The notes under the pieces are model-generated. The model saw nothing but the letters and a program-made list of their open reading frames with translations. It had not been told where the DNA came from and did not search any database. Made by a program: the position numbers and the translations under genes. From Cyanobacterium sp. Dongsha4 (GTDB lineage Bacteria > Cyanobacteriota > Cyanobacteriia > Cyanobacteriales > Cyanobacteriaceae), in NCBI RefSeq assembly GCF_036345015.1, contig NZ_CP084098.1, positions 3,547,326 to 3,611,325 of the forward strand: DNA of 64,000 nt. The letters are read 5' to 3'. Positions 12,083-42,035 of the stretch are shown piece after piece. Position 1 is the stretch's first letter. Every line of letters begins with the position of its first letter.

Positions 12083-15000
12083 TTAATAATTCCCGTATTT
12101 TGAGATTTAATTCTTTTAACCGAATAGGCTTACTCAAATATAAATCTGCCCCTGCTTCTAAACATTTTTGCTCATCTCCTTTCATGGCTAGGGCAGTTAA
12201 AACAACTATTTTACTTTGATGTAAAAGGGGATTTTGACGAATGATTTTAATTAATTCTATGCCCGAAATATTTGGCATTTGAATATCTGTAATGATTAAA
12301 TCGGGATGGTGAGTGTTGAGGATATTTAAGGCTTCTTCTCCGCTATTGGCACAGAGAATAGAAAATCCGTTGGCTTCTAAATAACTGGAAGTGGTGAGCA
12401 GATTAGGGCAATTATCATCTACTAATAAAATTGATATTTGTTGATTCTTTTCTGCTTGAGGGTTTTTTGGGGGCAAATCTTTTGATTTTTGTGGGGACAT
12501 ATCTGTATTTTGTTGATCTAGCTCGTAGGGAAAATCTACCATAAAGCAACTACCAACCCCTAACTCACTTGTTAATTCTACTTTTCCGCCATGTAAGTCG
12601 AGAATCTGTTTTACTAAGACTAATCCTAAGCCTGTACCCTCAAATTGACGATTTAGTGAAGCGTCTAATTGTACAAAAGACTGAAATAGTTTGCTGATGT
12701 CTTCTTTTTTGATACCAATACCTGTATCCGTAATGGCAAAACGTAAATAGTTTTTCGTTATCTCCTGATTTTCTTCTGAAACTCGTGACACTTTAAGGCT
12801 AACTTTTCCCCCTTCTGGAGTGAATTTGACGGCGTTATTCAATAGATTAATTAAAACTTGCCCTGTACGTCTTTCATCTGCCATCAATTTATTTAGATTG
12901 TCAGGAATTTGGCTAGTAATTTTGATATTTTTTTTCAAGGCTTGTTGTCTTACGAAAGATAAACTGTAAGAGCATATTTCTTTGATACTGAGGGGTTTAA
13001 TGTCTAGTTCTAGTCGATTGGATTCGATTTTAGCAAGATCGAGAATATCATTAATTAGAGAAAGCAAATGAGAACCTGCGGTTTCAATGGTTTTTAGTGC
13101 TTTGTTTTGTCGAGGGTTGATCTCACCATATACTTGATCTTGCAAAATTTCTGTCATGCCTAAAATAGCATTAAGAGGTGTTCGCAATTCGTGACTCATA
13201 TTTGCGAGAAATTCACTTTTAGATCTATTGGCTATTTCTGCTTTTTCCATCGCTATTTGCAGTTGTTGGTTTTTTTGACATAATTCTTCTTGGGCTTTTT
13301 TCTCTTGTGTTATGTCGCTATTAATCCCTACTAGAGTAACGGGGTTTCCTTCACTATCTCTTTGTATTTGTGCGATCGCATTTATCCAACGAATTTCTCC
13401 ATCAGGGCGAAGAATACGGAACTTAGCCACAAAATCCTGTTCTTCTTTCACCACTAAAGCAAATGTATCTTCTACAAAAGAAATATCTTCATGATAAACA
13501 CAAGCAATAAAATCAGCATAAGTGAGGTAAGACTGTGCCTCATCCATGCCAAAAATTTCATACATTTGTTGATCCCATTGCAAACTTAAACTTTTAAGGT
13601 CTAACTCCCAAATGCCATACGCTCCAGCTTTTAGAGCCACACGAAGGCGATGGGTTAAATCTTTTAATTGATTTTCCGCTTTCAAACGAGCAGTAATATC
13701 TTGAGTAATACCTAAAATCCCTATTAATCGCCCTTCCAGATTTCGCAGGGGAACTTTACTGGTTTCCAAGCAAATATTGGTGTTGTTATCAAGAGAAACA
13801 TTTTGTAATTTTAATAACAGACTATCTCCAGAGCCAATCACCTTTAAGTCTTCTTCTTGAATCTTTTGAACAGTAATTTCATCCCATGGTAAATCTGCAT
13901 CTGTGTTACCAATTATAGTTTCAGGATTATCAATACCTAAAATTTTTGATGCCGTCGAATTCATTCCTCGATAAACTAACTGATTATCTTTCCAAAAAAC
14001 CCCAATGGGTAAGGTTTTTAAGATGGTTTCTAACAAGTTTCTCGACTCTTGTAGAGCTTTTTCTGTCTTAATTCTATCTGTAATATCTGCGGACATTCCA
14101 CAAATGCCGTAGATTTCTCCAGCTAAATTGCGAAGAACAAACTTATCCGATAAAAAATATCGTTTTTCACCGTTATATAAAATGGTTTCCTCAAATTGTT
14201 GAGCCTCACCAGATTCAATTAATTGTTGATCATTTAATGTAATTTCACGGGCAATATCTGGCTCGAAAATTTCTTCATTGGTTTTACCCGCAATATTTTC
14301 AGGATTCCAATTAAAAAGATCTAAAAAGGCTTGATTAGCTAAAGTATGCTTTCCTTGTAAATCTTTAACATAAATAACAGAGGGGGAAAAATTGAGGATT
14401 GCCTGTAGTTTTGCTTCACTTTCAAGGACTCTTTGTTCTATCAGTTTTCTTTTTGTAATGTCAGTAAAATGCCCAATTATTTCCAAAGGTTCACCCTTAC
14501 TATCTTGGATAACAATTAATTCGTCTGCAATCCAAACATAGTGACCATCCCTATGGCGCAAACGATATTCATGGGTCATAAAATTGGCAATAAATAACTG
14601 TTCGATATTGGCAAAAACTCTCTGCTTATCTTCTGGATGGAGTAAATCTAGCCAAAGAGCGGGATGTCGAGCAAAATCAAGGGGAGTATATCCTAAAACT
14701 TGAGAGACTCTTTCACTGATAAAAGTACATTGATAATCATCGTGAGGTTGAGTGCTATAAATAACAGTAGGACAAGAGTTTAAAAGATAATCAAAACGTT
14801 TTTTCAAGGCAATAATTTTGTGTTCTGCTTGTTTGCGTTCACTAATATCAATAATTGTGCTACGACTGCGAAAATAATTACCATTATTATCAGTGATTAT
14901 TCTAGTGTTAATTGAAACAGGCAAGATAGTACCATCTTTTGCAACCATTTCTAATTCTGAATCTTTGATATGTTTCAGCCATCCTTTTTGTAGCATTAGA

Positions 15001-21547: not shown

Positions 21548-21768
21548 GTGAAGAGGGGATTTTTTTAAGAAACGTTTGTACTGTAACAAATGAAATTTAC
21601 TTAATCTGATTGATTAATCAATTTAGTTGATGTAGGTAGCTACAATTAGTTTAGAATTAGAATCATAATATTAATCTTTAATCGAATTAGTTAATGGGGA
21701 ATAATTATTTTTTGTTTGATTTGAGTTAATATTTTTATCTAACTGATAATTCCAAAAACCCTGAAAAG
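21548..21768. other. AT-rich region upstream of psbA
   Basis: Between the psbA promoter and the transposase relic there is an AT-rich stretch with a small inverted repeat (TTGATTAATCAA at 21609-21620). It may contain upstream control sites for psbA. No coding frame or repeat matching other loci is visible. Confidence 0.35.
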
Positions 21769-22287
21769 CTATGCCATAGCTGAAATCCCCAGAAAATCGG
21801 GCTTAAAATGCTCTTTAATTACATTGGGTAAGTTAGTTGTTGATTCTATTTTTCTCATTATTTGCGTCAATGATAAACGACCTAAACTAGGCATAAACTG
21901 CATTGATAACAGTATTAAATACATTATTACTTTAATTAATAATCCTATATAAATTCCCTGTTTCCTTAATTTCATCTCCGCAATTTTTAGTACCGATTTT
22001 AAAGTTTTCCAAAACTTTTCAATAATATTGTGTGCAGACCATATCCGTCATATTTCTACTCTTCTCAACGATATACTACTTAAATCCATCAATAAATAAC
22101 AACTACTATTACTTTTTTGAAAAAATAACAAATTTAACTCCCCAAAAGTCGGATTTGATAATTGTTTTCTCACACAAGGCACATCTATTACCCATTGATT
22201 TTCTTGATAATCCACTCTTTTTTTCCATTCACTTCCTTTTCCTTTAAAATCTTCTCCTTCAAATACATAACTACTTTTCCCTGCCAT
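21769..22287 (-). pseudogene. decayed IS transposase with an in-frame stop
   Basis: One continuous frame of 173 codons is interrupted by a single TGA (22050-22048). Before it: KGSEWKKRVDYQENQWV, VPCVRKQLSNPTFGEL. After it: WSAHNIIEKFWKTLKSVLKI, MKLRKQGIYIGLLIKVIMYL, a pattern typical of the C-terminal part of cyanobacterial DDE transposases (an E...FW...LK block followed by a hydrophobic segment). It is shorter than a full transposase (usually 350 or more residues), so sequence is missing as well. The 11-mer CGAACTCAGGT lies 24 bp beyond its 5' end. Confidence 0.75.
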
Positions 22288-22293
22288 AATTAG

Positions 22294-30782: not shown

Positions 30783-30856
30783 GGCTTGGTAGCTCAGTTG
30801 GTTAGAGCAGGGGACTCATAAGCCCAAGGTCGGCGGTTCAAATCCGCCCCGAGCCA
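30783..30856 (+). tRNA. tRNA with CAU anticodon (Met, or Ile2 if modified)
   Basis: A 74-nt cloverleaf: acceptor GGCTTGG/CCGAGCC (one G-U), D arm GCTC/GAGC, anticodon loop CTCATAA, T arm GGCGG-TTCAAAT-CCGCC, discriminator A, CCA not encoded. The anticodon stem has three G-C pairs flanked by G27.A43 and A31.G39 mismatches. CAU can be elongator Met or, with lysidine, Ile2; GGGGACTCATAA resembles both. The CAST-like end begins 10 bp after it. Confidence 0.9.
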
Positions 30857-30865
30857 TTCCGAAAA

Positions 30866-30990
30866 TGTCGAGTAACAGCTTATCTGTCATCGTTAACAAA
30901 TTGTTGTCATCTTAACGAATTAACTGTCGCCTTAACAAATTGCTGTCGCTGAATAATCGTTAACAAATTAAATGTCATAATTACGAATCA
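30866..30990. mobile_element. terminal repeat array of a type V-K CRISPR-associated transposon
   Basis: TGTC(A/G) starts at 30866, 30885, 30905, 30925 and 30944, a 19-20 bp period, and again at 30973. Most copies continue into TTAACAAATT or TTAACGAATT. From memory this is the architecture of the Tn7-like CAST ends that TnsB binds (TGT...GACAAATTA units), and it begins 10 bp past a tRNA, the usual homing place of V-K CASTs. A short CTTTCAATCCACTT at 31000-31013 recalls the reverse complement of the 3' end of the V-K CRISPR repeat. The opposite end was not found in the window. Confidence 0.75.
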
Positions 30991-31027
30991 GTTGCTCCTT
31001 TCAATCCACTTAAACCCATTATATACA

Positions 31028-31135
31028 ATCGCATCGAGAAGTAAACTCATCTGCAACTATCTGTTTATCGATAGCTTTAGCCTCCTCTACACTATTACTT
31101 TTGATCGCACCGAGAATTAAACTCATCTGCAACTA
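31028..31135. repeat. pair of 32-bp direct repeats beside the Cas12k fragment
   Basis: Copies at 31028-31059 and 31104-31135 (ATCGCA(T/C)CGAGAA(G/T)TAAA then CTCATCTGCAACTA) differ at 2 of 32 positions, with a 76-bp period. Read on the minus strand both can encode VADEF(N/T)SRCD, so they may be a duplicated coding scrap, not a CRISPR unit. The second copy supplies the non-homologous tail of the Cas12k fragment frame. Confidence 0.6.
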
Positions 31136-31660
31136 GGAACAAACCGCTAGAATGCCTATTCTTACCACTCTTCTTGATAGTTTGATCCTGAAGAAACTGT
31201 TGGAAATAATGTAACTGTCTGTTATCGCAATAAACCTTAAAAGTTAATTTACTTAGTCCATTAAACCGAACACAGATACGCCCTTGATTATCAAGACTCC
31301 AAACAAGATTCTCATTAGTTTCATAGCTAACAGGATAAGGTAAAGACTTACTATCGGTGAGAAGATACTTCTGCCATAACTTGGCTTCATTTTCATCTTT
31401 AGGTACATTTTGAGACGCAGTGATAAGAGTATTTAACCATTGTTGATCACTTAAATTTCTACCTTTAGGTAATCTGGCTTCAATCTGCTTTTCCAGTCTC
31501 TCTATTTGTATCTCCGTCTTGCGGTAAAGTTTGTCAAATTTATCCCTTTGTTCAGGTTGAGTAGGTATCTTTTGATTATGCTTAATCAAATAAGTGATAG
31601 CCGTTTTTTCTAAAATATCACTACTGTCACGATGCCTTTGAAATAAATACTTATGCTTTT
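31136..31660 (-). pseudogene. cas12k: internal fragment of Cas12k (CAST type V-K effector)
   Basis: About 175 residues of a roughly 640-residue protein. The minus-strand frame reads YLFQRHRDSSDILEKTAITY, then KTEIQIERLEKQIEARLPKG, then NENLVWSLDNQGRICVRFNG and FKVYCDNRQLHYFQQFL, ending at KNRHSSGLF. From memory these correspond block by block to Scytonema hofmanni Cas12k (VEIQIQRL, RMPKGRDL, ETNEDMVWS, CVHFNGLSDLTFEVYCDNRQLHWFQ, NQHSSGLF). The N-terminus, everything after SSGLF and the RuvC-like part are lost. No start codon fits the first part; a later ATG at 31589 opens 164 codons ending at 31095. Confidence 0.85.
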
Positions 31661-33175
31661 CTTCTGTTTATTATAGATGAGTGTCATAGATCTGCGTGGG
31701 GTAAATGGTCATTAGTTTTAACTCGTAATCCTTCTGCGGTGCAAATTGGTTTAACTGCTACTCCTCGCAAGTTAGAGACTACCGAAGACACTCCCGAAGT
31801 GAGGGAAGATTTACAGATTACGGCGGATAATGTCCGTTATTTTGGTGAGCCTGTTTATGAGTATGATATTGGGCAAGGTATTGAGGATGGTTATTTAGCG
31901 GTTTGTTCTATTCACCCTCGTAATATCAATTTAGATCATACTGGGATTACTATTGAGGAGATTTTGGCACGAAATCCAGTGGATAGTATTACAGGGCAAC
32001 CCGTCACTGAGGAGGAGATTCGAGAGCGTTATGAGTGTACTAGCTATGAGCGTCGCATAGAGCTTCCAGATCGAGTTTTAGTGATGTGCCAAGACTTATT
32101 CTCGGCTTTAGTACAAAGGGGCAAACCTGAGCAAAAAACTGTTATCTTCTGTGTCAGTGATAAACACGCTGATGAGGTGGCTATTACCATGAATAATATT
32201 TATGTGGATTGGTGTGGTCAAAATAACCGTCAGCCTTTGCCTGATTATGCTTTTAAATGCACTGCAAAAAGTTCTGGTAATGATTATTTACCTGATTTAA
32301 AGGAGTCTTCGAGAAGTCATTTTATCGCTACTACGGTTGATTTGTTGACGACTGGGGTGGATGTACCTCCGTTGGAAAATATCGTTTTCTTTCGTTATAT
32401 GCGATCGCCCCTCACTTTTTATCAGATGATTGGTAGGGGTACAAGGTTACATCCGCCTTCGGGTAAGTTGATGTTTCGAGTTTATGACTATACCAATGCT
32501 ACTCGTTTATTTGGGGTGGAGTTTTTGACTAAGTTATCACCCCGTAAGGATGATAAGACAGGCAATAAAGTTAAGGAGAAGGGCGGTAGTTATAATGTGG
32601 AATCTCAAAAAATTATTACTGTGGAAGGTTTTGATGTACGCATTAGTGCAGGGCAAAAGTCTATTTTAACGATGGTAAATGGTGAGACGATTCCGGTGAG
32701 TGTGGAGGAATACCGAGAAAGGTTAGGGAAACGGTTAATGGAGGAGGTGTCGAATATCGCTCTATTTCGAGAGATTTGGATTAAGCCTAATACCCGTAAT
32801 CAGTTAATGAGTATTTTACCTGATGGGGGGCGATCGCCTCTAGTGTTAAGAGCAGTATCGGAGTTGGAAGACTATGATTTGTTTGATATTCTAGGGGAAT
32901 TGGGTTATGGTATTCAGTTACGCACCCGAAAACAACGGGCAGAAGCCTTTGAGTATAAGCAAGAAAAATGGTTAGAAATGATGCCAGAAGCCACCGGAGC
33001 GACTATAAAAGCCATTACAGCTCAATTTGCTCAAAATGGTACGGAAGAGCTAGAAAACCCTAAATTATTTCAGTTACCAATGGTGAAAAAAGCAGGGGGA
33101 ATCGGTGCTTTAAAAGAGTTTGGCGATCCTAAAGAGTTATTATTAGACACTAAAATGAGGTTATTTGCGGCATGA
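31661..33175 (+). pseudogene. hsdR: 3' half of type I restriction subunit HsdR
   Basis: The frame begins inside the helicase motif II (IIDECHRSAWGKW at about 31670) and continues through GLTATPR (motif III-like). TVDLLTTGVDVPPLENIVFF and YQMIGRGTRLHP (motifs V/VI) follow, then the C-terminal domain, ending AKFGD-type sequence KEFGDPKELLLDTKMRLFAA. A complete HsdR would have an N-terminal PD-(D/E)XK nuclease and Walker A, both absent here; no ATG fits before 31739. The break is directly at the end of the Cas12k fragment, so rearrangement created the junction. Confidence 0.88.
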
Positions 33176-33280: not shown

Positions 33281-33646
33281 ATGACCAGTTTAATGTTAAA
33301 AAAAGTAATTGAAGAAGTTAATCAACTAGATTTTGATGACCAGTTAGATTTAATATTATATCTAAAAAATAAAACGGAAAAGTTTAATAAAAATACTATT
33401 ATCAATAATGATTTTATTAGTCAAAATGATGATATTCTAGGGGGTGAACTTTGCATTAAAGGTACTAGAATATCTGTCGAATCAGTATTAGAAAATTTGG
33501 CTTCTGGACAAACTAAAGAACAATTAATTGCTTCTTATCCTAGTCTTTCTTTAGATGCTATTGAAGGTGCGATCGAGTTTGCTCAATCTTTAGATAATGA
33601 TCATTATTTAAGAAAATTATTTGATTCTTTTATCCAAAAATATTAA
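33281..33646 (+). CDS. DUF433 family protein with N-terminal extension
   Basis: The 121-residue protein has a 45-residue N-terminal helical part (MLKKVIEEVNQLDFDDQLDL) and then the DUF433 domain (ILGGELCIKGTRISVESVLE, YPSLSLDAIEGAIEFAQ). DUF433 proteins are HTH antitoxins usually followed by a DUF5615 PIN-like toxin. No such toxin follows here, so it looks orphaned. It sits between hsdR and hsdS. Confidence 0.75.
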   Translation: MTSLMLKKVIEEVNQLDFDDQLDLILYLKNKTEKFNKNTIINNDFISQNDDILGGELCIKGTRISVESVLENLASGQTKEQLIASYPSLSLDAIEGAIEFAQSLDNDHYLRKLFDSFIQKY

Positions 33647-33669: not shown

Positions 33670-33768
33670 ATGAATGATGTGATTTATAAAAATATTATTA
33701 ATGAATTTAAACAATTAAATTTTAATGAACAATTAGACTTAATTACTGATTTAATTAAAAATGACTAG
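33670..33768 (+). CDS. 32-residue ORF, duplicate of the upstream protein's N-terminus
   Basis: ATG 33670 opens a short frame with sequence like YKNIINEFKQLNFNEQLDLI, clearly similar to the first 35 residues of the 33281 protein (LKKVIEEVNQLDFDDQLDLI). It overlaps the hsdS start by 8 bp (aatgactag). Probably a truncated duplicate, perhaps kept because it couples translation to hsdS. Confidence 0.5.
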   Translation: MNDVIYKNIINEFKQLNFNEQLDLITDLIKND

Positions 33769-34480
33769 AAATAAGCACAATTTGCCTGATGGTTGGCAAT
33801 GGGTTAAATTAGAATCGGCTTTAGCTTTACCCTCTGCTTATCTGCGATCGCACTTCCACAGTGAAGAGGCTAAATCTTGGAAGCAAGTTAAATTTAAAGA
33901 TATATTAACATCTATTCAAAACGGAATTTATAAAACTGCGGATTTCTATGGTAGTGGTTATCCTTTTCTGAGAATGTATAACATTCAGAATAATTCATGG
34001 CATTTAACAATGTCTGAAATAGCAAAAATAACTTTAACGAAAGATGAATTGAATAAATATTGTTTACAAGAAGGAGATCTTCTTATTAGTCGAGTTAATA
34101 GCCATGAACTTGTTGGTAAGTGTGCATATATTCAATATGATTTAAGTAATTATGTTTATGAAAATATGTTGATACGTCTAAGATTATCTCAATCTGTTAA
34201 TTCTCTTTTTATTGCACAACAGATCAATAGTTTCAATATTCGTAAACAAATTCAGTCAGTCGCAAAGAGAGCTATTGGACAATCTTCGATCAACTCTAAA
34301 GACATTGGTAACTTAATATTATTAATCCCATCATTAGAAAGACAGAGAGAGATTGCGATCGAGCTTAACGAAAAGATGAGAGAATGTGAGAAACTGAAAC
34401 AGGCATTACAAGAGCAGTTAGAGACAGTTAATCAACTACCATCCGCCTTATTAAGACGTGCCTTTAGGGGGGAATCATAA
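33761..34480 (+). CDS. hsdS: HsdS with one target-recognition domain (internal deletion)
   Basis: The specificity subunit of a type I R-M system. A normal HsdS has two TRDs and two helical spacers in about 400-450 residues, but this has 239. It begins LPDGWQWVKLES, the start of TRD1, and jumps to ALPSAYLRSHFHSEEAKSW, which resembles the central conserved region. One TRD follows (VKFKDILTSIQNGIYK) and a final coiled coil (EKMRECEKLKQALQEQLETV) with LPSALLRRAFRG. TRD1 appears deleted in frame. Half-HsdS proteins can sometimes dimerise to read a palindrome. Confidence 0.82.
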   Translation: MTRNKHNLPDGWQWVKLESALALPSAYLRSHFHSEEAKSWKQVKFKDILTSIQNGIYKTADFYGSGYPFLRMYNIQNNSWHLTMSEIAKITLTKDELNKYCLQEGDLLISRVNSHELVGKCAYIQYDLSNYVYENMLIRLRLSQSVNSLFIAQQINSFNIRKQIQSVAKRAIGQSSINSKDIGNLILLIPSLERQREIAIELNEKMRECEKLKQALQEQLETVNQLPSALLRRAFRGES

Positions 34481-34731: not shown

Positions 34732-35103
34732 TCACAAAAGGGGAAGTAAACGCAAACGAATACGGTTCGCGTCAACTGTAACCACTGCCCCTTTCAATAA
34801 ATCATCCTGACATTGAGGCAAAATAGATAATAATAATTCACTCATCGCAACCGCCTTTAATCTTTCAATGCGAATACGAATTACTGAAGGAGAAGTAGCT
34901 TGACTAAGAGCTAATAAAGTATGAAAATCAGCATCGAGAGTGACAACAGTTCGTTTTTCTTGTTTTGCTCTTGCCAAAATTTCCTCATCTTCTGCGGTAG
35001 AATAGCCGATGTCTGCCACATGAATAGTATCAATTCCTCTCTGTGATAACATCTGAGCCGACGAACGGGGCAACCCTTGATCAAGCAATAACTTTATCTT
35101 CAT
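34732..35103 (-). CDS. DUF5615 PIN-like toxin
   Basis: The 123-residue protein shows the DUF5615 marks: KLLLDQGLPRSSAQMLSQRG at the start, HVADIGYSTAEDEEILARA, and VVTLDADFHTLLALS with the conserved Asp residues of a PIN-like nuclease. Its first bases overlap the preceding DUF433 gene by 23 bp on the same strand, as in known DUF433-DUF5615 antitoxin-toxin pairs. Confidence 0.82.
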   Translation of the reverse strand: MKIKLLLDQGLPRSSAQMLSQRGIDTIHVADIGYSTAEDEEILARAKQEKRTVVTLDADFHTLLALSQATSPSVIRIRIERLKAVAMSELLLSILPQCQDDLLKGAVVTVDANRIRLRLLPLL

Positions 35104-35323
35104 TGCCTAACTCAATAACTCGATCTTCAAAATAACTGGAAGCGAAAATTAATGCCTGTTGGATGTCTTCTTCTTGCAATTCTGGAAATTCTTGAAACAA
35201 CTCCGTGCGATCGGGATAAGTAGCTAATAACTCAATAACCCGTTTTACCGTTAAGCGTAAGTTACGGATGCAAGGTTGGCCATTCATCTGTTTAGGATTA
35301 AAAGTAACTCTATCTAGTCTCAT
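35081..35323 (-). CDS. DUF433 antitoxin
   Basis: The 80-residue protein has the DUF433 pattern (FNPKQMNGQPCIRNLRLTVK, then LLATYPDRTELFQEFPELQE, DIQQALIFASSYF). It precedes the DUF5615 toxin on the same strand with a 23-bp overlap. Together they form a complete toxin-antitoxin pair transcribed against hsdM. Confidence 0.85.
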   Translation of the reverse strand: MRLDRVTFNPKQMNGQPCIRNLRLTVKRVIELLATYPDRTELFQEFPELQEEDIQQALIFASSYFEDRVIELGNEDKVIA

Positions 35324-35493: not shown

Positions 35494-37029
35494 ATGACTA
35501 AAAATAACATCAAACAATTTAACACCCAACAAAGCCTCAACAGCTATATTAAAGGTATCTGTGACATTATGAGGCGATCGAACTGTACCAGTGCCTTACA
35601 ATACGTTCCCGAATTAACATGGTTGTTATTTTTGCGTATCCTTGATGACATCGAACAACAAGAAGCCGAAGGCATGGAAGTATTAGGCTTAGACTTTCAT
35701 TACTCCCTTAAATACCCTTATCGTTGGCAAGATTGGGCATCTCCTAACGGCACAAAACGGCTAGAGTTAACCATGAGTGGCAACTTAGGGGATTTTATGA
35801 ACTTCGTTAACGGCGGTTACGACAATGACGGTAAACCCTTTGGTTTGTTACCCACCCTCAAAACCTTAAAAGATCAACCGAAAGCCACTCCTAGACAAAA
35901 AATTATCAGCGAAGTTCTCTCCGCTACCGATAAAGTAAGAATTGATAGTGAGCGTAACTTACTAGATGTTTTGGATAAAGTCCACGAAATCCGCAACGTT
36001 GACGATACCCACATCTTCCCCATATCCCAAGTATATGAAGGATTACTGTTGAAAATGGGGGAGAAAAATAATGATGGTGGGCAATTCTTCACTCCTAGAG
36101 AAGTCATAAGGGCGATTGTCACTACCATTGATCCCCAAATAGGAGAAACCGTCTATGATCCAGCCAGTGGTACAGGAGGCTTCCTTGCTCAAACCTACGA
36201 ACATATTAGCAATCAATTAGGGGATGACATCACCGCCGAACAATTAGAGACGCTTAAACATCAAACCTTTTACGGTAGAGAAAAAGAAAACCTGATTTAT
36301 CCCATCGCCTTAGCGAACCTTATGTTACACGGTATTGATCAACCGAACCTATGGCATGGTAACACCTTAACAGGTAGTGCCGTCTATGGCGACTTGTTTA
36401 AAAATGCCCCTCAATTATTTGATGTTATCCTCACTAATCCGCCCTTTGGTGGTAAAGAACATAAAGAAGTACAGGCAAAGTTTAGTTATAAAACCAGTGC
36501 CACTCAAGTTCTTTTTTTACAACACTTAATTGACAGTCTCAATCATAACGGTAGATGCGGAGTCGTGTTAGATGAAGGGGTATTATTCCGCACCAATGAA
36601 ACCGCCTTTGTGCAAACCAAGAAGAAACTACTCAATGATTGTGATTTATGGTGTATTATCAGCCTTCCTGCGGGGACATTTGCGGCGGCTGGAGGGGGAG
36701 TTAAAGCCAATATTCTATTTTTCACCAAAGGTAAACCCACTGAGAAAATTTGGTATTATGACTTATCTGAGGTGAAAGTTACTAAACGTCAACCCCTAAC
36801 CTCTAAACACTTTGAGGAATTTTTAGAGTTACTCCCTGATAGACAAGACAGTGAGAGAAGTTGGACTGTTACCCGTGAGGAAATAGAACAGAAAAACTAT
36901 GATCTCAAAGCCGTCAATCCAAATATAAAAGTAGAGGAGGACGATCGAACCCCTGAAGAACTGATACAATTCATAGAAACTAAAAGTCAAGAAGTACAAC
37001 TTGTACTAAATAATCTAAGAAAAGGATAA
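35494..37029 (+). CDS. hsdM: type I restriction-modification methyltransferase HsdM
   Basis: N6-adenine DNA methyltransferase subunit. The 511-residue protein has the N-terminal HsdM helical domain (1-150), AdoMet motif I (VYDPASGTGGFLAQT at about 222) and the catalytic NPPFGG motif IV (near 313). It looks full length and intact, in contrast to hsdR and hsdS. Its ATG lies after a 170-bp gap from the DUF433 gene. The Mrr-like gene starts at its stop (ATAATG overlap). Confidence 0.93.
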   Translation: MTKNNIKQFNTQQSLNSYIKGICDIMRRSNCTSALQYVPELTWLLFLRILDDIEQQEAEGMEVLGLDFHYSLKYPYRWQDWASPNGTKRLELTMSGNLGDFMNFVNGGYDNDGKPFGLLPTLKTLKDQPKATPRQKIISEVLSATDKVRIDSERNLLDVLDKVHEIRNVDDTHIFPISQVYEGLLLKMGEKNNDGGQFFTPREVIRAIVTTIDPQIGETVYDPASGTGGFLAQTYEHISNQLGDDITAEQLETLKHQTFYGREKENLIYPIALANLMLHGIDQPNLWHGNTLTGSAVYGDLFKNAPQLFDVILTNPPFGGKEHKEVQAKFSYKTSATQVLFLQHLIDSLNHNGRCGVVLDEGVLFRTNETAFVQTKKKLLNDCDLWCIISLPAGTFAAAGGGVKANILFFTKGKPTEKIWYYDLSEVKVTKRQPLTSKHFEEFLELLPDRQDSERSWTVTREEIEQKNYDLKAVNPNIKVEEDDRTPEELIQFIETKSQEVQLVLNNLRKG

Positions 37030-37400
37030 TGTCAGAATCTTTACCTTCAATCCCCTCATATCAGTCTTTGATGTTGCCCATATTAACTATTGTTGCTGAC
37101 GGAAGTGAATATAAATTATCAGAAGTCAGACAAACATTAGAAAATAAATTAGGGCTTAGTAACGAACAACTAGACTTAAAGTTACCTAGTGGCAGACAGT
37201 CTGTTTTTAGTAACAGAGTGGGTTGGGCAAAGACTTACCTTAAAAAAGCAAAGTTAGTTGACTATCCTAGGTATGGACATTTACAAATAACTGAAAGAGG
37301 ACAAGAACTCTTAAAGTCTGATCCGATTTTCTATTTTTTCTCTCTGCCAATCAGCTTCTGTTGCAGATATATTCTGACTCATAAATATTCTCTAAGCTAA
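37029..37400 (+). pseudogene. Mrr-like restriction protein, N-terminal domain only
   Basis: The first 95 residues match the Mrr_N winged-helix domain (LPSIPSYQSLMLPILTIVAD, LPSGRQSVFSNRVGWAKTYL, GHLQITERGQELL). The catalytic PD-(D/E)XK domain should follow, but after about residue 97 the sequence turns into an unrelated hydrophobic tail (FYFFSLPISFCC) and stops at 123. The gene overlaps the hsdM stop by one base. It is a truncated type IV-like restriction gene; the winged helix alone might still bind DNA. Confidence 0.7.
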
Positions 37401-37428
37401 ATTATTAATTTTTAATTTCTAATAGATT

Positions 37429-37986
37429 TTAGCTTTTCCATTTGATATTACAACCAAGACTCGGTTTTTGATCAGGATTAATGGGCTTACCTACTAATAA
37501 AGATGCGATCGCATCTCGTAAATCTTTTCCTGTTACAGGTATATCTAAACTAGGACGACTATCATCTAATTGTCCTCTATATACTAACTTAAAATCGTCA
37601 TCAAATAAATAAAAATCAGGGGTACAAGCCGCTTGGTAGGCTTTTGCTACCTCTTGGGTTTCATCATAGCAAAAAGGAAAATTAAAGCCGAGTTTCTCTG
37701 CCATTTGCTTTAAATTTTCAGGGGAATCATCAGGGTAATTTTCTGCATCGTTACTACTAATTGCCACAATGCCTAAATTTTGATTACCATAGTCATGACC
37801 AATTTTGGCTAATTCTTGCTCAATGTGTTTCACAAATGGACAATGTTGACAAATAAACATCACCAACAACCCCTTGCATCCCTGAAAATCTCTCAGAGAA
37901 ATTATTTTCCCTGATACCGTATCGAGTAAACTAAAATCAGGTGCGATCGTACCTAATGGTAACATAACTGATGGTGTTCGAGCCAT
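37429..37986 (-). CDS. thioredoxin-fold/AhpC-TSA family protein
   Basis: The 185-residue protein starts at ATG 37986 (MARTPSVMLPLGTIAPDFSL); an ATG seven codons upstream is also possible. It has the redoxin fold (GKIISLRDFQGCKGLLVMFI) with a CQHC redox motif at the N-terminus of the first helix and a cis-Pro region (QAACTPDFYLFD). The type is often annotated as 'thioredoxin family protein' and probably reduces peroxides or disulphides. Located just downstream of the R-M remnants, but of ordinary chromosomal character. Confidence 0.85.
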   Translation of the reverse strand: MARTPSVMLPLGTIAPDFSLLDTVSGKIISLRDFQGCKGLLVMFICQHCPFVKHIEQELAKIGHDYGNQNLGIVAISSNDAENYPDDSPENLKQMAEKLGFNFPFCYDETQEVAKAYQAACTPDFYLFDDDFKLVYRGQLDDSRPSLDIPVTGKDLRDAIASLLVGKPINPDQKPSLGCNIKWKS

Positions 37987-38009
37987 AAAGCAATTAATAA
38001 CTAACAATT

Positions 38010-38100
38010 AACAATGAGTCGGTTTCAGGTGTCAGGTGTCAGGAGAATGAAGAATTAATTTTCTCCCCACTCCTCACTCGCCACTCCCTACTCCCCAATA
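38010..38100. repeat. dispersed repeat phrase before the sensor kinase
   Basis: gtcggtttcaggtgtcaggt followed by gtcaggag is the familiar TCAGGTTTCAGG type, then ctccccactcctcactcgcc C-rich text. Nothing coding. Confidence 0.45.
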
Positions 38101-38107
38101 TCCTATC

Positions 38108-39217
38108 ATGAAGCTACCTAAACCAAAAATGAGTCTTAATACCCGATTGCTTCTGTCTCACTTAGCGGTGATGATGGTAGGGTTGAGTACATTTGTCTGT
38201 ATCGCCAAAGTATCTTCCCCTCAATTTTTTATACTACGGCTAGAACAGTTGGAAAGAAGGGGTTTTATCACATTTAGATCCGCTAGAACCTATTTAATTG
38301 ATGGTTTCCAAACTGCTTGGAATCGTAGCACATTTTGGTCTTTTATTGTGGGTGGTGGCAGTGCTGGATTTTTGAGTTACTGTCTCAGTCGTCGTATTAT
38401 GAAGCCTTTACAGCAAATGAAGGAAATTACCCAACAGTTTGCGGCAGGGAATTTAAAGGAAAGAATGCCCGAAAGCGATATTTTAGAGTTAAATCAACTT
38501 AGTATCAGTTTTAATCGTATGGCCAGTTGCTTAGAAGATGTAGAAAGTCGGCGACGGGATTTAGTTAGTGATTTAACCCATGAGTTACGCACCCCTTTAA
38601 CAGTGGTTAGAGGATATTTGGAGGAGTTAGCAGGAGGAGAAATAGAACCTTCTCTTCAATTATATGCTAATTTAGTGAAAGAAACTAAGCGATTAGAACG
38701 TTTAACCCACGATTTACAGGAATTATCAAAAGCAGAAGCTGGTTATCTGCCTATTAATTCAAAATCTGTCAATTTACTTCCTTTATTAAAAAATTTAATT
38801 TCTCGATTTTCTGACCAATTACTAGAAGAAGGGCCTACTTTAAGCCTTGATTCCCCTGAAAGTTTGCCTTTAGTTATAGCAGATCTCGATCGCACTGAAC
38901 AAATTTTAGTTAACCTTATTGGTAATGCCATCAGACATACGGAAACAGGAGAGATAAAGATTAAGGTGGTAGAAAAAGTCTCTTATCTGTGGTTAGAAGT
39001 GATTGATACAGGTGTTGGTATTCCTCAAGAAGATTTACCCCATGTTTTTGAAAGATTTTGGAGAGGCGATCGCTCTCGTTCGAGTTATTCTGGAGGTAGT
39101 GGTATTGGTCTAGCTATTTCTAAGAAACTGGTAGAATTACAAGGAGGGAAAATAGAAGTAAAAAGTGAATTAAACAAAGGTACTATTTTCCGTTTTTCTC
39201 TACCCTTGAGTAAATAA
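38108..39217 (+). CDS. membrane sensor histidine kinase
   Basis: The 369-residue protein has a TM segment at about 11-32 (LLLSHLAVMMVGLSTFVCIA), a short periplasmic loop, a second TM near 78-95, and HAMP (RRIMKPLQQMKEITQQFAAG). HisKA follows with the phospho-His in LVSDLTHELRTPLTVVRGYL, then HATPase (VIDTGVGIPQEDLPHVFERF, GGSGIGLAIS). The stimulus is unknown. No response regulator gene is adjacent, so it is an orphan kinase. Confidence 0.92.
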   Translation: MKLPKPKMSLNTRLLLSHLAVMMVGLSTFVCIAKVSSPQFFILRLEQLERRGFITFRSARTYLIDGFQTAWNRSTFWSFIVGGGSAGFLSYCLSRRIMKPLQQMKEITQQFAAGNLKERMPESDILELNQLSISFNRMASCLEDVESRRRDLVSDLTHELRTPLTVVRGYLEELAGGEIEPSLQLYANLVKETKRLERLTHDLQELSKAEAGYLPINSKSVNLLPLLKNLISRFSDQLLEEGPTLSLDSPESLPLVIADLDRTEQILVNLIGNAIRHTETGEIKIKVVEKVSYLWLEVIDTGVGIPQEDLPHVFERFWRGDRSRSSYSGGSGIGLAISKKLVELQGGKIEVKSELNKGTIFRFSLPLSK

Positions 39218-39300
39218 ACTCAATTCGATATAAAATTTATGGGTTAGAAATAATAATAAATTTACTCTTTAATCAATTAATAATATTCTTTAAATTAATA

Positions 39301-39705
39301 ATGAATGACAAAACAAACCAAGCCCTAGCTTTACTAAAAAGTTATAGTTGCTTACAATTAAAAACCATTAAATCAGAACAAGAAAAACAAGAATTAGAAT
39401 CAAGTATAAAACTAATTGTCAATCTTTCTGATGAGCAAAATTTTGGCATTTGTGCGTCTAATTCTCTCGAAGCCTTTAATACTCTAAAAAATTATTTGAA
39501 AGCCCTAGGCTATGAAGAAAATATAGACATAGAAAAAAGCACAGAAAATAAACCCGTTTATTTAAAGTTTAGTACCGAAAGAAAATCTTATCATATTAGC
39601 GATTATTCAGGAGATTATCGAGGAGTTTTGATTACTATTTTTGCCGATTTCAATGAAGAAATTATTGGTACTTATGGGCATTTTCCCCTTAATTTATTCA
39701 ATTAA
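39301..39705 (+). CDS. DUF1824 family protein
   Basis: The 134-residue protein resembles the cyanobacterial DUF1824 family: an N-terminal helix pair, NKPVYLKFSTERKSYHI, then YSGDYRGVLITIF and the end IIGTYGHFPLNLF. The function is unknown. It stands alone between the kinase and the tautomerase gene. Confidence 0.7.
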   Translation: MNDKTNQALALLKSYSCLQLKTIKSEQEKQELESSIKLIVNLSDEQNFGICASNSLEAFNTLKNYLKALGYEENIDIEKSTENKPVYLKFSTERKSYHISDYSGDYRGVLITIFADFNEEIIGTYGHFPLNLFN

Positions 39706-39826
39706 TTAGGATTTGATGAAAAATCTGTGTCGCCGAGGGTAGGCGAGAGGTAATCATTAAATAAGTGCGTAAAGCCAGTTAATATATATTCTGATAAACC
39801 ATTACTTATAATGATCAATAATAATT

Positions 39827-40177
39827 ATGCCTTTAATCAAAGTTCAAACATCTATAGCCAATCCTGATCAAGAAAAAGTCAAAGATTTATTGAAGAATTT
39901 ATCCAGTAAATTAGCCAAACATTTAGGTAAGCCAGAATCTTATGTAATGACAATATTTGAATCTGATTTACCCATGAGTTTCGCAGGTACTTTTGACCCT
40001 GTTTGCTATTTAGAAATTAAAAGTGTTGGTACAATGAGTTCTAGTCAAACTAAGACAATGAGCGAAGATTTTTGCAACATTATAAATAATAATTTAGGTG
40101 TGTCTAAAAATCGTATATATATCGAATTTGCCGACGCAAAAGGATATTTATGGGGCTGGAATGGATCGACTTTCTAA
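39827..40177 (+). CDS. MIF-like phenylpyruvate tautomerase-related protein
   Basis: The 116-residue protein begins MPLIKVQTS with the catalytic Pro after Met. It has the conserved MIF end GYLWGWNGSTF and the central block YVMTIFESDLPMSFAGTFDP. It is a small trimeric tautomerase of the MIF/D-dopachrome family, with an unknown physiological substrate in cyanobacteria. It overlaps the convergent flavoenzyme gene by 4 bp. Confidence 0.9.
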   Translation: MPLIKVQTSIANPDQEKVKDLLKNLSSKLAKHLGKPESYVMTIFESDLPMSFAGTFDPVCYLEIKSVGTMSSSQTKTMSEDFCNIINNNLGVSKNRIYIEFADAKGYLWGWNGSTF

Positions 40178-41253
40178 GTTATCATGTCCTTGATTATTGA
40201 AGCTGTGGCGGGAGCTAGTAAAACACCATTACGATAATGTCCCGTTGCTAGGATAATATTATTATAGGGTTCTAGTTTTTCAATTATAGGTGCAGATTTC
40301 CCCTCGGGACGTGGTCTTTTCCCTGTCCATGATAACATGATGGGAGCTTGAGCTAAACTGGGACAAAATGCGATCGCATCTGAGCGTAAATTCTTTAATA
40401 ATTGGTCTTTTGCAATGACTTTCCCCTGACTATCGGGAAATTCAACGGTTGCCCCTAACCAAAACTCATGATTACCCATAGGGGCGATATGAATATCATT
40501 TCCTGTAATTACTGGATTAAAACCATCTTTACTTTGCCATTGGTCATATTTTACTAACAATGCTTGTCCTAATACTGGTTTAATTTCGATGGGTATATGC
40601 AGTGATTCTAATAGAGAAGAAGTACCTAAACCCGTTGCTATAATTACTATATCTGCAGATAAAGATTGATTTTCTAAAATAACTTCAGTATGATTTTCCG
40701 AACAGATATTCAAACCCTTAACTTTCTCTCCGAAAATACATTTAACTCCTTTCATCGATGCACCTTTAACAAGGGCTTTAGTTAAAAATGTCGGACTAAC
40801 CTGCCAATCATCAGGGGAATACACAGCCCCAACTATCGAAGAAGTGTCAATTTCTGGACAATGAAATTTTAATAAAGATTGATCCCAAATATCCAATTTA
40901 TAGCCCTGAGAAGCCCTAAATTGAGCTAATTTTCCATATCTTTGAAGTTCATCCTCTGTAAATAATAACTTGACAATACCCTGTGAATTATGGGGAATTG
41001 ATAAACCTGTGAAATTTTCCAATTCAGAAATCAAAGTTTTATATCGCTTAAGACTTAATTCCCTTAACTTCCACGCTCTCCCTTTCGTTTTAAGACTAAT
41101 AATTGCCATTAAGATTCCTAAAGCCGCCCCTGTTGCCCCCGTGCCGGGATTTTTTTCATCGATTAAGGTTATATCAAATTCAGAATTATTACTAAGCTCA
41201 TATGCGATCGCACTTCCTACAATACCACTACCGACAATAATAATTTTTTTCAT
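40174..41253 (-). CDS. FAD-dependent amine oxidoreductase (glycine-oxidase/DadA-like)
   Basis: The 359-residue protein starts at ATG 41253 (MKKIIIVGSGIVGSAIAYEL), placing the dinucleotide-binding GxGxxG at the start; an ATG ten codons upstream is less likely. DAO-type features are DEKNPGTGATGAALG, a conserved late block (TGKRPRPEGKSAPIIEKLEP) and NIILATGHYRNGVLLAPAT. It resembles ThiO glycine oxidase, which makes dehydroglycine for thiamine. No thi gene is adjacent, so the substrate stays open. Confidence 0.85.
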   Translation of the reverse strand: MKKIIIVGSGIVGSAIAYELSNNSEFDITLIDEKNPGTGATGAALGILMAIISLKTKGRAWKLRELSLKRYKTLISELENFTGLSIPHNSQGIVKLLFTEDELQRYGKLAQFRASQGYKLDIWDQSLLKFHCPEIDTSSIVGAVYSPDDWQVSPTFLTKALVKGASMKGVKCIFGEKVKGLNICSENHTEVILENQSLSADIVIIATGLGTSSLLESLHIPIEIKPVLGQALLVKYDQWQSKDGFNPVITGNDIHIAPMGNHEFWLGATVEFPDSQGKVIAKDQLLKNLRSDAIAFCPSLAQAPIMLSWTGKRPRPEGKSAPIIEKLEPYNNIILATGHYRNGVLLAPATASIIKDMIT

Positions 41254-41508
41254 TACTTTGATAATCTCATACACAATAGGCACAACTTTAATAGAGTTGT
41301 TGCGAAATAAAGGGATGAAGTTTTAATTCCAAATATTGAATAAAATTGATAATATCTTTCCCCTTCCTGATTTTATTTTATGCTACTTCTAAGTAGAAAT
41401 TCCATAATCCACACCCTGTCACCATTAATTTATCATCAAACTCCGCTTTTCTATTTCTATAAGTTGACGATACTGCATTGTATCGCTGAAACTCCTGAAA
41501 AGGCATTT

Positions 41509-41901
41509 TCACATCTGACTCTTTCCCTGGATAATTGCCGATTTTCTTCTTTGTGTTTCAATCCAATTTAATCCAGCTTCCTCTCCAGCACTAAAGATGA
41601 GCGTAGTGCCTTTTACTAAAATACCAATAGCCCCAGAAAGATCATCAACATTCTCTGCTTCTTGCTCAAAATTATGCTCTTCGGAAAGGTTCTTCGTGTT
41701 ATTAAGAATCTCAATGTAGTTGCTATATACATCTTGTTCGGCATTCGCCTTCAACTTTTTGGCGGCACAACTGCAAACAGATTTACTATTACCTATTTCT
41801 GTACAATATTCTATCACTATTGGATCTCCGCCCACCAATCCACTACAGGCAACAAGCCCCGAATGAAGAATAATTGAAAAATAAAAGCTGAGTCGTCTCA
41901 T
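41509..41901 (-). CDS. small predicted lipoprotein of unknown function
   Basis: The 130-residue protein has a short signal peptide (MRRLSFYFSIILHSG) with an LVAC lipobox at residues 16-19. A mature part has four to five Cys (YCTEIGNSKSVCSCAAKKL) and then an acidic helical region. The CSCAAKKL pattern occurs in several small bacterial secreted proteins of unknown function. The C-terminal codons (RRKSAIIQGKSQM) run into the next intergenic stretch. Confidence 0.55.
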   Translation of the reverse strand: MRRLSFYFSIILHSGLVACSGLVGGDPIVIEYCTEIGNSKSVCSCAAKKLKANAEQDVYSNYIEILNNTKNLSEEHNFEQEAENVDDLSGAIGILVKGTTLIFSAGEEAGLNWIETQRRKSAIIQGKSQM

Positions 41902-42035
41902 ATCTTATGTCCTGATTGCAATTTTATGGTTAAATTGGTGTGTTATTTTGGTTCTATTTATTTATCCAATTCAAACTGATCATTTATGCAACAATGAGCA
42001 AAAATAATTTCTCCCAATCCTTCCAAATCGATTAA

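Follow-up and report, generated by a model that had tools for sequence, protein, structure and literature searches.

Type V-K CASTs, for which ShCAST and AnCAST serve as the reference, carry their left end (LE) 3′ of a tRNA gene that faces the element, with the CRISPR array reversed toward the LE. Homing relies on two features next to the end, a truncated repeat (R*) and an anchor spacer of 17 nt, and on a GTN PAM; the distance from PAM to end is 46-82 nt with one exception (PMC9938897). Attachment sites differ even among close relatives, for reasons that are unknown according to a review (PMC11406308). A CAST left end beside a tRNA gene in a cyanobacterium is thus a kind of arrangement already known. 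We analysed a 64-kb stretch of DNA (the window, whose coordinates are used throughout) from the genome of Cyanobacterium sp. Dongsha4 (G000), in which an array of TGTC boxes marks the start of a relic, the window element, at 30866 onward. Judged from sequence, this array is almost certainly the LE of a dead type V-K CAST inserted 3′ of tRNA-Met(CAT). The end of the element that adjoins the tRNA is made up as follows.

30783 to 30856, plus strand: tRNA-Met(CAT), the attachment-site gene, pointing toward the element (ARAGORN and Rfam).
30866 to 30978, plus strand: left end (LE) with six TGTC boxes, predicted TnsB sites (motif search).
30980 to 30997, minus strand: anchor (homing) spacer of 18 nt, an exact match to tRNA-Thr(CGT) and 12/17 to the adjacent tRNA-Met.
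30998 to 31009, minus strand: truncated CRISPR repeat R*, GTGGATTGAAAG, in the layout described in PMC9938897.
31021 to 31057, minus strand: CRISPR repeat with a degenerate 3′ end (from the sequence).
31097 to 31133, minus strand: CRISPR repeat that directly abuts the cas12k fragment (from the sequence).
31134 to 31667, minus strand: cas12k fragment, NF038191 positions 169-346, its 3′ part missing.

The original prediction, made from the letters of the window, placed TGTC starts at 30866, 30885, 30905, 30925, 30944 and 30973, and a re-count returned the same six. The 19-20 bp period ascribed to them describes the first four gaps (19, 20, 20 and 19 bp) and fails at the last, which is 29 bp. Likewise, the TAAC(A/G)AATT motif said to follow most of the boxes is strict at three of the six (30885, 30905 and 30925) and looser at 30866, 30944 and 30973. 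As proposed, the array lies just 3′ of the tRNA, 9 nt separating the end of tRNA-Met(CAT) at 30856 from the first box. The 64 kb contain three instances of TGTCN(3-4)TTAACRAATT, each of them in the array, against a shuffle mean of 0.01 (none of 100 shuffles reached three). When the 173 plus-strand TGTC of the window were placed at random 2000 times, seven of the placements brought six of them within 125 bp; the densest stretch elsewhere in the window holds three boxes. The locus has the V-K type of LE, with several TnsB-type boxes (recognised by sequence, and predicted as TnsB sites) 3′ of an element-facing tRNA. That the array is instead a repeat that forms part of the tRNA-Met transcript, or a product of chance, is scarcely credible: it does sit directly 3′ of the tRNA, but a congener (G001) has no array 3′ of the same tRNA, the array recurs in the Dongsha4 genome beside other tRNAs together with CAST parts, and the motif is in excess over shuffles.

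A Cas12k relic had also been predicted alongside the array, and NF038191, PDB sequence and genome-wide matches all confirm it. The open frame matches NCBIfam NF038191 at 3.7e-65 and the ShCas12k chains (PDB sequences) at 2.5e-51; in a genome-wide cas12k search the fragment spans NF038191 positions 169-346 of 629 (178 positions) with 245.7 bits, the cut-off being 150. Both CRISPR repeats in the window are of the form GTTGCAGATGAGTTTAMTTCTCGRTGCGAT and are reversed toward the LE, R* and an anchor spacer of about 17 nt lie beside the LE, and the PAM-to-LE distance, 61 nt in the Thr register and 62 nt in the Met register, falls inside 46-82 nt. R* and the anchor, the CRISPR repeats, the Cas12k fragment and sister copies that have CAST parts beside tRNAs all back the predicted CAST-type transposon end. 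The locus shares with ShCAST and AnCAST the presence of Cas12k, a multi-TGTC LE 3′ of an element-facing tRNA, LE-directed CRISPR repeats, R* with an anchor spacer, and cargo inward of cas12k. It differs from them in that cas12k is a fragment, in that its anchor fits another tRNA, and in that tracrRNA, tns genes and a right end (RE) were not found at the locus. By eye, there is no tracrRNA at its V-K position between cas12k and the array, cas12k running straight into the repeat; tnsB, tnsC and tniQ, which V-K CASTs carry beside the RE, are all absent from the locus, as is expected of a relic, and no complete CAST was seen in the genome.

Besides the window element, the Dongsha4 genome contains V-K relics at tRNA-Thr(CGT) (L016), tRNA-Thr(GGT) (L017) and tRNA-Arg(ACG) (L015). 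Sequence comparison makes L016 and L017 sisters of the window element and L015 a more distant V-K relic, which has no more than about 50 bp, at 84-86% identity, in common with any one of the window element, L016 and L017. L017 is, by the same comparison, a further copy of the window element, R-M cargo included: the two share the LE type, cas12k and the R-M genes in long common blocks that are 97-98% identical (97.6% for the cas12k block, 96.9% for hsdR and 98.1% for hsdM). Unlike the window element, L017 has an anchor that fits its own tRNA (17/17), keeps a MerR-family ORF, an 819-aa hsdR, a tnsB remnant and the RE, and has a different hsdS middle and different accessory genes. Its MerR-family ORF lies beside the start of cas12k in reverse orientation, which is the V-K layout of cvkR, and its LE starts 73 nt from the protospacer. 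L016 contains a 391-aa tnsB-like ORF, an inserted transposase-like ORF, two repeats, R*, the anchor and both ends, and has neither cas12k nor cargo. Insertion of V-K CASTs produces a 5 bp target-site duplication. The flanks of L016 (AGATA and AAATA) agree at four of five positions; those of L017 read ACTAT on both sides only if its LE has lost 3 bp, and otherwise do not match.

Domain searches of the genome found the Mu-transposase C-terminal domain at a single place, in L016 (34/61 positions), and the TniQ domain at three places, one of them upstream of L015 beside a TniB-domain (TnsC-type) ORF. A further ORF upstream of L015 is tnsB-like by eye and has no Pfam match. The other two TniQ matches, at G000:C1:3826320 and 3804324, lie away from the V-K relics in open reading frames 460 and 500 aa long, and perhaps belong to other Tn7-like elements. 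In L015, the cas12k relic appears by eye to be interrupted by an insertion sequence (approximately 13500-14500).

An empty site was sought in related genomes, as the original prediction had suggested. In G001, the one congener that the family search included, opcA and tRNA-Met are followed by different DNA that does not contain the array. A search of G001 with 30866-31660 gave no match; a positive control did not accompany this search, but a shorter query of similar type matched in G000. opcA was located in 14 genomes of the family, and in four of them, Dongsha4 included, tRNA-Met comes directly after it. No match was obtained among the plasmids searched with 30866-31660, nor among the phages searched with 31058-31106, the one array spacer. 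We encountered neither the array at unrelated sites devoid of transposon genes nor conserved tRNA-flanking DNA in strains that never had a CAST, the two outcomes that would have spoken against the predicted end.

Inward of cas12k, the window element carries type I R-M cargo in the order hsdR, hsdS, hsdM and a Mrr-domain gene.

31670 to 31678, no strand: 9-bp overlap at the junction of cas12k and mid-hsdR (alignment to L017).
31670 to 33175, plus strand: hsdR cargo, its N-terminal part missing (an 819-aa open frame in L017).
33761 to 34480, plus strand: hsdS cargo; both ends match the sister copy, and nothing between them does.
35494 to 37029, plus strand: hsdM cargo, inside a block 98% identical to L017.
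37029 to 37400, plus strand: open frame with a Mrr N-terminal domain, entering DNA like that of the G001 chromosome at about 37327.

At the junction, the window lacks about 1.84 kb present in L017, from mid-cas12k to mid-hsdR: window 31348-31678 aligns with L017 9420-9752, and window 31670-33173 with L017 11595-13098. Relative to L017 the window element also lacks everything past the Mrr gene, including the right end, and no piece of the window matches the known right ends of L016 or L017. G001 was rejected as a guide to the right flank, since the DNA 3′ of its tRNA-Met matches elsewhere in G000. Pieces of window 36900-42000 match scattered places in G001, and because matches between the two genomes are scattered, flank order is uninformative for locating insertions. 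The interval between hsdR and hsdM holds DUF433/DUF5615 genes in the window (33281-33646 and 34732-35323), whereas L017 has a gene with a PIN domain there, preceded by a small ORF (13090-13784). Read from the alignments, the differing accessory genes and hsdS middle are an exchange of cargo around a conserved R-M frame. Elsewhere in the window, 21742-22290 agrees at 97% identity with a portion of the transposase-like ORF of 391 aa that is inserted in L016 (L016 6485-7660, without a Pfam match); by this similarity it is what remains of another mobile element, close to a psbA-like gene.

The anchor of the window element does not match the tRNA beside which the element lies. Its spacer is identical to that of L016 and matches exactly the tRNA-Thr(CGT) gene at C1:1801328-1801400, the only one of the 43 tRNA genes of the genome for which it is perfect. 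Its score at the adjacent tRNA-Met is 12/17, the PAM position being occupied by TTA, and with a GTN PAM no match there exceeds 8/17. Scores of 12/17 with a GTA PAM are also reached at tRNA-Thr(TGT) and three tRNA-Ala(TGC) genes, and 13/17 with ATA at tRNA-Arg(TCT). The other relics of the genome score 17/17 (L016, GTA), 17/17 (L017, GTG) and 13/17 (L015, GTT) at their own tRNAs. No further copy of the same R*-anchor turned up, at up to two mismatches, in the 388 genomes of the order that had been drawn from a larger group, the two Dongsha4 copies being the only matches.

We surveyed how usual such a match is in 99 downstream stretches (15 loci of relatives, 80 of 128 confirmed loci and 4 from Dongsha4). 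Removal of 24 without a tRNA in the expected orientation, one without a repeat (L030) and three exact duplicates left 67 distinct non-own tRNA-adjacent loci, which include close relatives and were not thinned. In 61 of the 67 the anchor matches the neighbouring tRNA at 15-17/17 with a GTN PAM, so that this trait, absent from the window element, is usual and not defining. Of the six unmatched loci, L135 scores 14/17 at its own tRNA, and L088, L107, L114, L118 and L134 show no anchor that could be recognised; not one of the 67 has a recognised anchor directed to a tRNA that is not its neighbour. For 60 of the 61 matching loci an end was called at 51-67 nt, by a simple TGT[AC] pattern confined to 50-75 nt that mis-called L017 (54, where its LE sequence gives 73). 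Among unrelated guide-tRNA pairs, 10% score at least 12/17 with any PAM and 5 of 3444 score at least 15/17 with GTN; this null takes one guide per pair and the survey the best score over all repeats of a stretch, and the two are not strictly alike. Outside the 67, where no tRNA was called, L140 has an exact target downstream, and L097 and L026 apparently face broken tRNAs (by eye). Three loci (L023, L092 and L125) have a tRNA-directed anchor and no such target in the downstream stretch examined; these were possibly inserted through array spacers.

tRNA-Met itself is a V-K site elsewhere. A pattern of R* and a Met anchor matched in 3 of the 388 genomes, at one or two mismatches. At these loci (L178, L179 and L180, in G010, G174 and G217) a Met anchor with PAM GTT lies beside tRNA-Met, with a CAST-type end at 61-62 nt; Cas12k accompanies the end in L179, and none is present in the short stretches examined of L178 and L180. 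They have in common with the window the tRNA-Met(CAT) neighbour, the same anticodon-arm target, R* and the end at 61-62 nt, and differ in their Met-directed anchor and in ends that begin TGAACAG, TGTACAA and TGTACAG. At L139, the anchor matches another part of its tRNA-Met at 16/17. The proposal that the end and the tRNA together define the attachment site gains from Met-directed elements in three genomes, and is qualified by an anchor that fits tRNA-Thr(CGT) here.

Among the explanations for the mismatch, we lean toward a recombination between resident copies that swapped the anchor of the window element, a reading drawn from a few aligned positions. The element would have arrived at tRNA-Met by a Met-directed anchor of its own. 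Recombination or gene conversion with the co-resident copy at tRNA-Thr(CGT), L016, would then have replaced the LE interior, R* and the anchor, leaving about 19 bp of the original outermost LE and a guide that no longer agreed with its site. In the first 193 nt, the window and L016 differ at four positions; three of these are positions 7, 13 and 14, and there is none in 15-168. At three positions of the outermost 14 bp the window LE is unlike both sister copies, the window-type end under the proposed exchange being TGTCGAGTAACAGCTTATC. The excess of differences in the first 19 bp has a hypergeometric p of 0.003, for a stretch picked after the differences had been seen, and the three outermost changes could be chance decay. 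The motif of the outermost end occurs nowhere else among 203 loci, so that none of these supplies a donor of it, and the original Met anchor gave no match in the Dongsha4 genome at up to two mismatches to the one Met-anchor pattern tried. The inner limit of any exchanged tract cannot be placed because L016 has neither cas12k nor cargo. A difference in array spacers between the window and L016 carries little weight, given that array spacers differ among all three copies.

Homing to an off-target site seems unlikely. A copy anchored to tRNA-Thr(CGT) would here have entered tRNA-Met through an imperfect match, perhaps because L016 already filled the tRNA-Thr site and made it immune; a review (PMC11406308) reports for V-K systems both insertion off site and what looks like target immunity. 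The same tRNA register is used, five PAM-proximal bases match, and descent of one copy from the other accounts for the absence of differences at end positions 15-168. The window end lies 61 nt from the Thr-register protospacer, exactly as in L016, and this distance, being the same in both, does not separate off-target insertion from the exchange of anchors. Against this explanation, the PAM position is TTA and matches with a GTN PAM reach no more than 8/17 at tRNA-Met, four tRNA genes of the genome offer 12/17 with GTA and tRNA-Arg(TCT) offers 13/17 with ATA, and a score of at least 12/17 with any PAM is attained by 10% of unrelated guide-tRNA pairs. The three outermost differences are also left unexplained. 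Off-target homing had been our first choice and was dropped after the anchor was scored against the 43 tRNA genes.

We regard mobilisation in trans as more doubtful still. An element anchored to tRNA-Thr(CGT) would have been moved by the Cas12k and Met-directed guide of another element, now lost. L016 does exemplify an anchor-bearing element that persists without its own cas12k, and a Met-directed anchor does exist in the family (G010), but the three known Met-anchored ends are unlike the window end, a Met anchor was not found in G000 (one pattern), and the outermost differences again go unexplained. It is very improbable that no match between anchor and site was ever needed, insertion being untargeted or guided by a CRISPR-array spacer: L023, L092 and L125 could be cited in its favour, but the window insertion lies at the distance found for Met-anchored elements (61-62 nt), and 61 of 67 tRNA-adjacent elements match their neighbour.

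In our judgement there is an even chance that attachment-site switching left this locus as its fossil: co-resident V-K copies at different tRNAs would recombine within the repeat-rich LE and exchange R* and anchor, leaving an element at one tRNA with the homing address of a second. The next jump of an anchor-swapped element would then lead to a new tRNA, which would help to explain the different tRNA sites of closely related V-K elements. Four relics in one genome, two of them with a common anchor at different tRNAs, suggest anchor exchange between copies as a testable route. As the window element is dead, its interest is evolutionary.

Some loci carry a whole tracrRNA-like sequence fused to R* and a tRNA-directed anchor. 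These are L027 (G005), L020 (G026), L022 (G037; the same locus as L067), L028 (G003), L140 (Geminocystis sp. GBBB08) and, in the Dongsha4 genome, L015 (approximately 11960-11680). A short predicted hairpin joins the two parts, an arrangement like that of engineered single guide RNAs, and certain V-K elements may thus encode the guide for homing in the form of a natural single-guide RNA; the available text of the literature searched gave no description of a natural single-guide RNA, or of a second or fused tracrRNA, with Cas12k. L020, L022, L027 and L140 additionally possess a CRISPR array and, after cas12k, a tracrRNA-like stretch that is separate from the fused one. In L020, L022/L067 and L027 the stretch preceding the anchor aligns to this separate tracrRNA, scoring 80-110 where its shuffles score no more than 15, and the next best pre-anchor alignment among the 60 rows scored (of 65) reaches 16.
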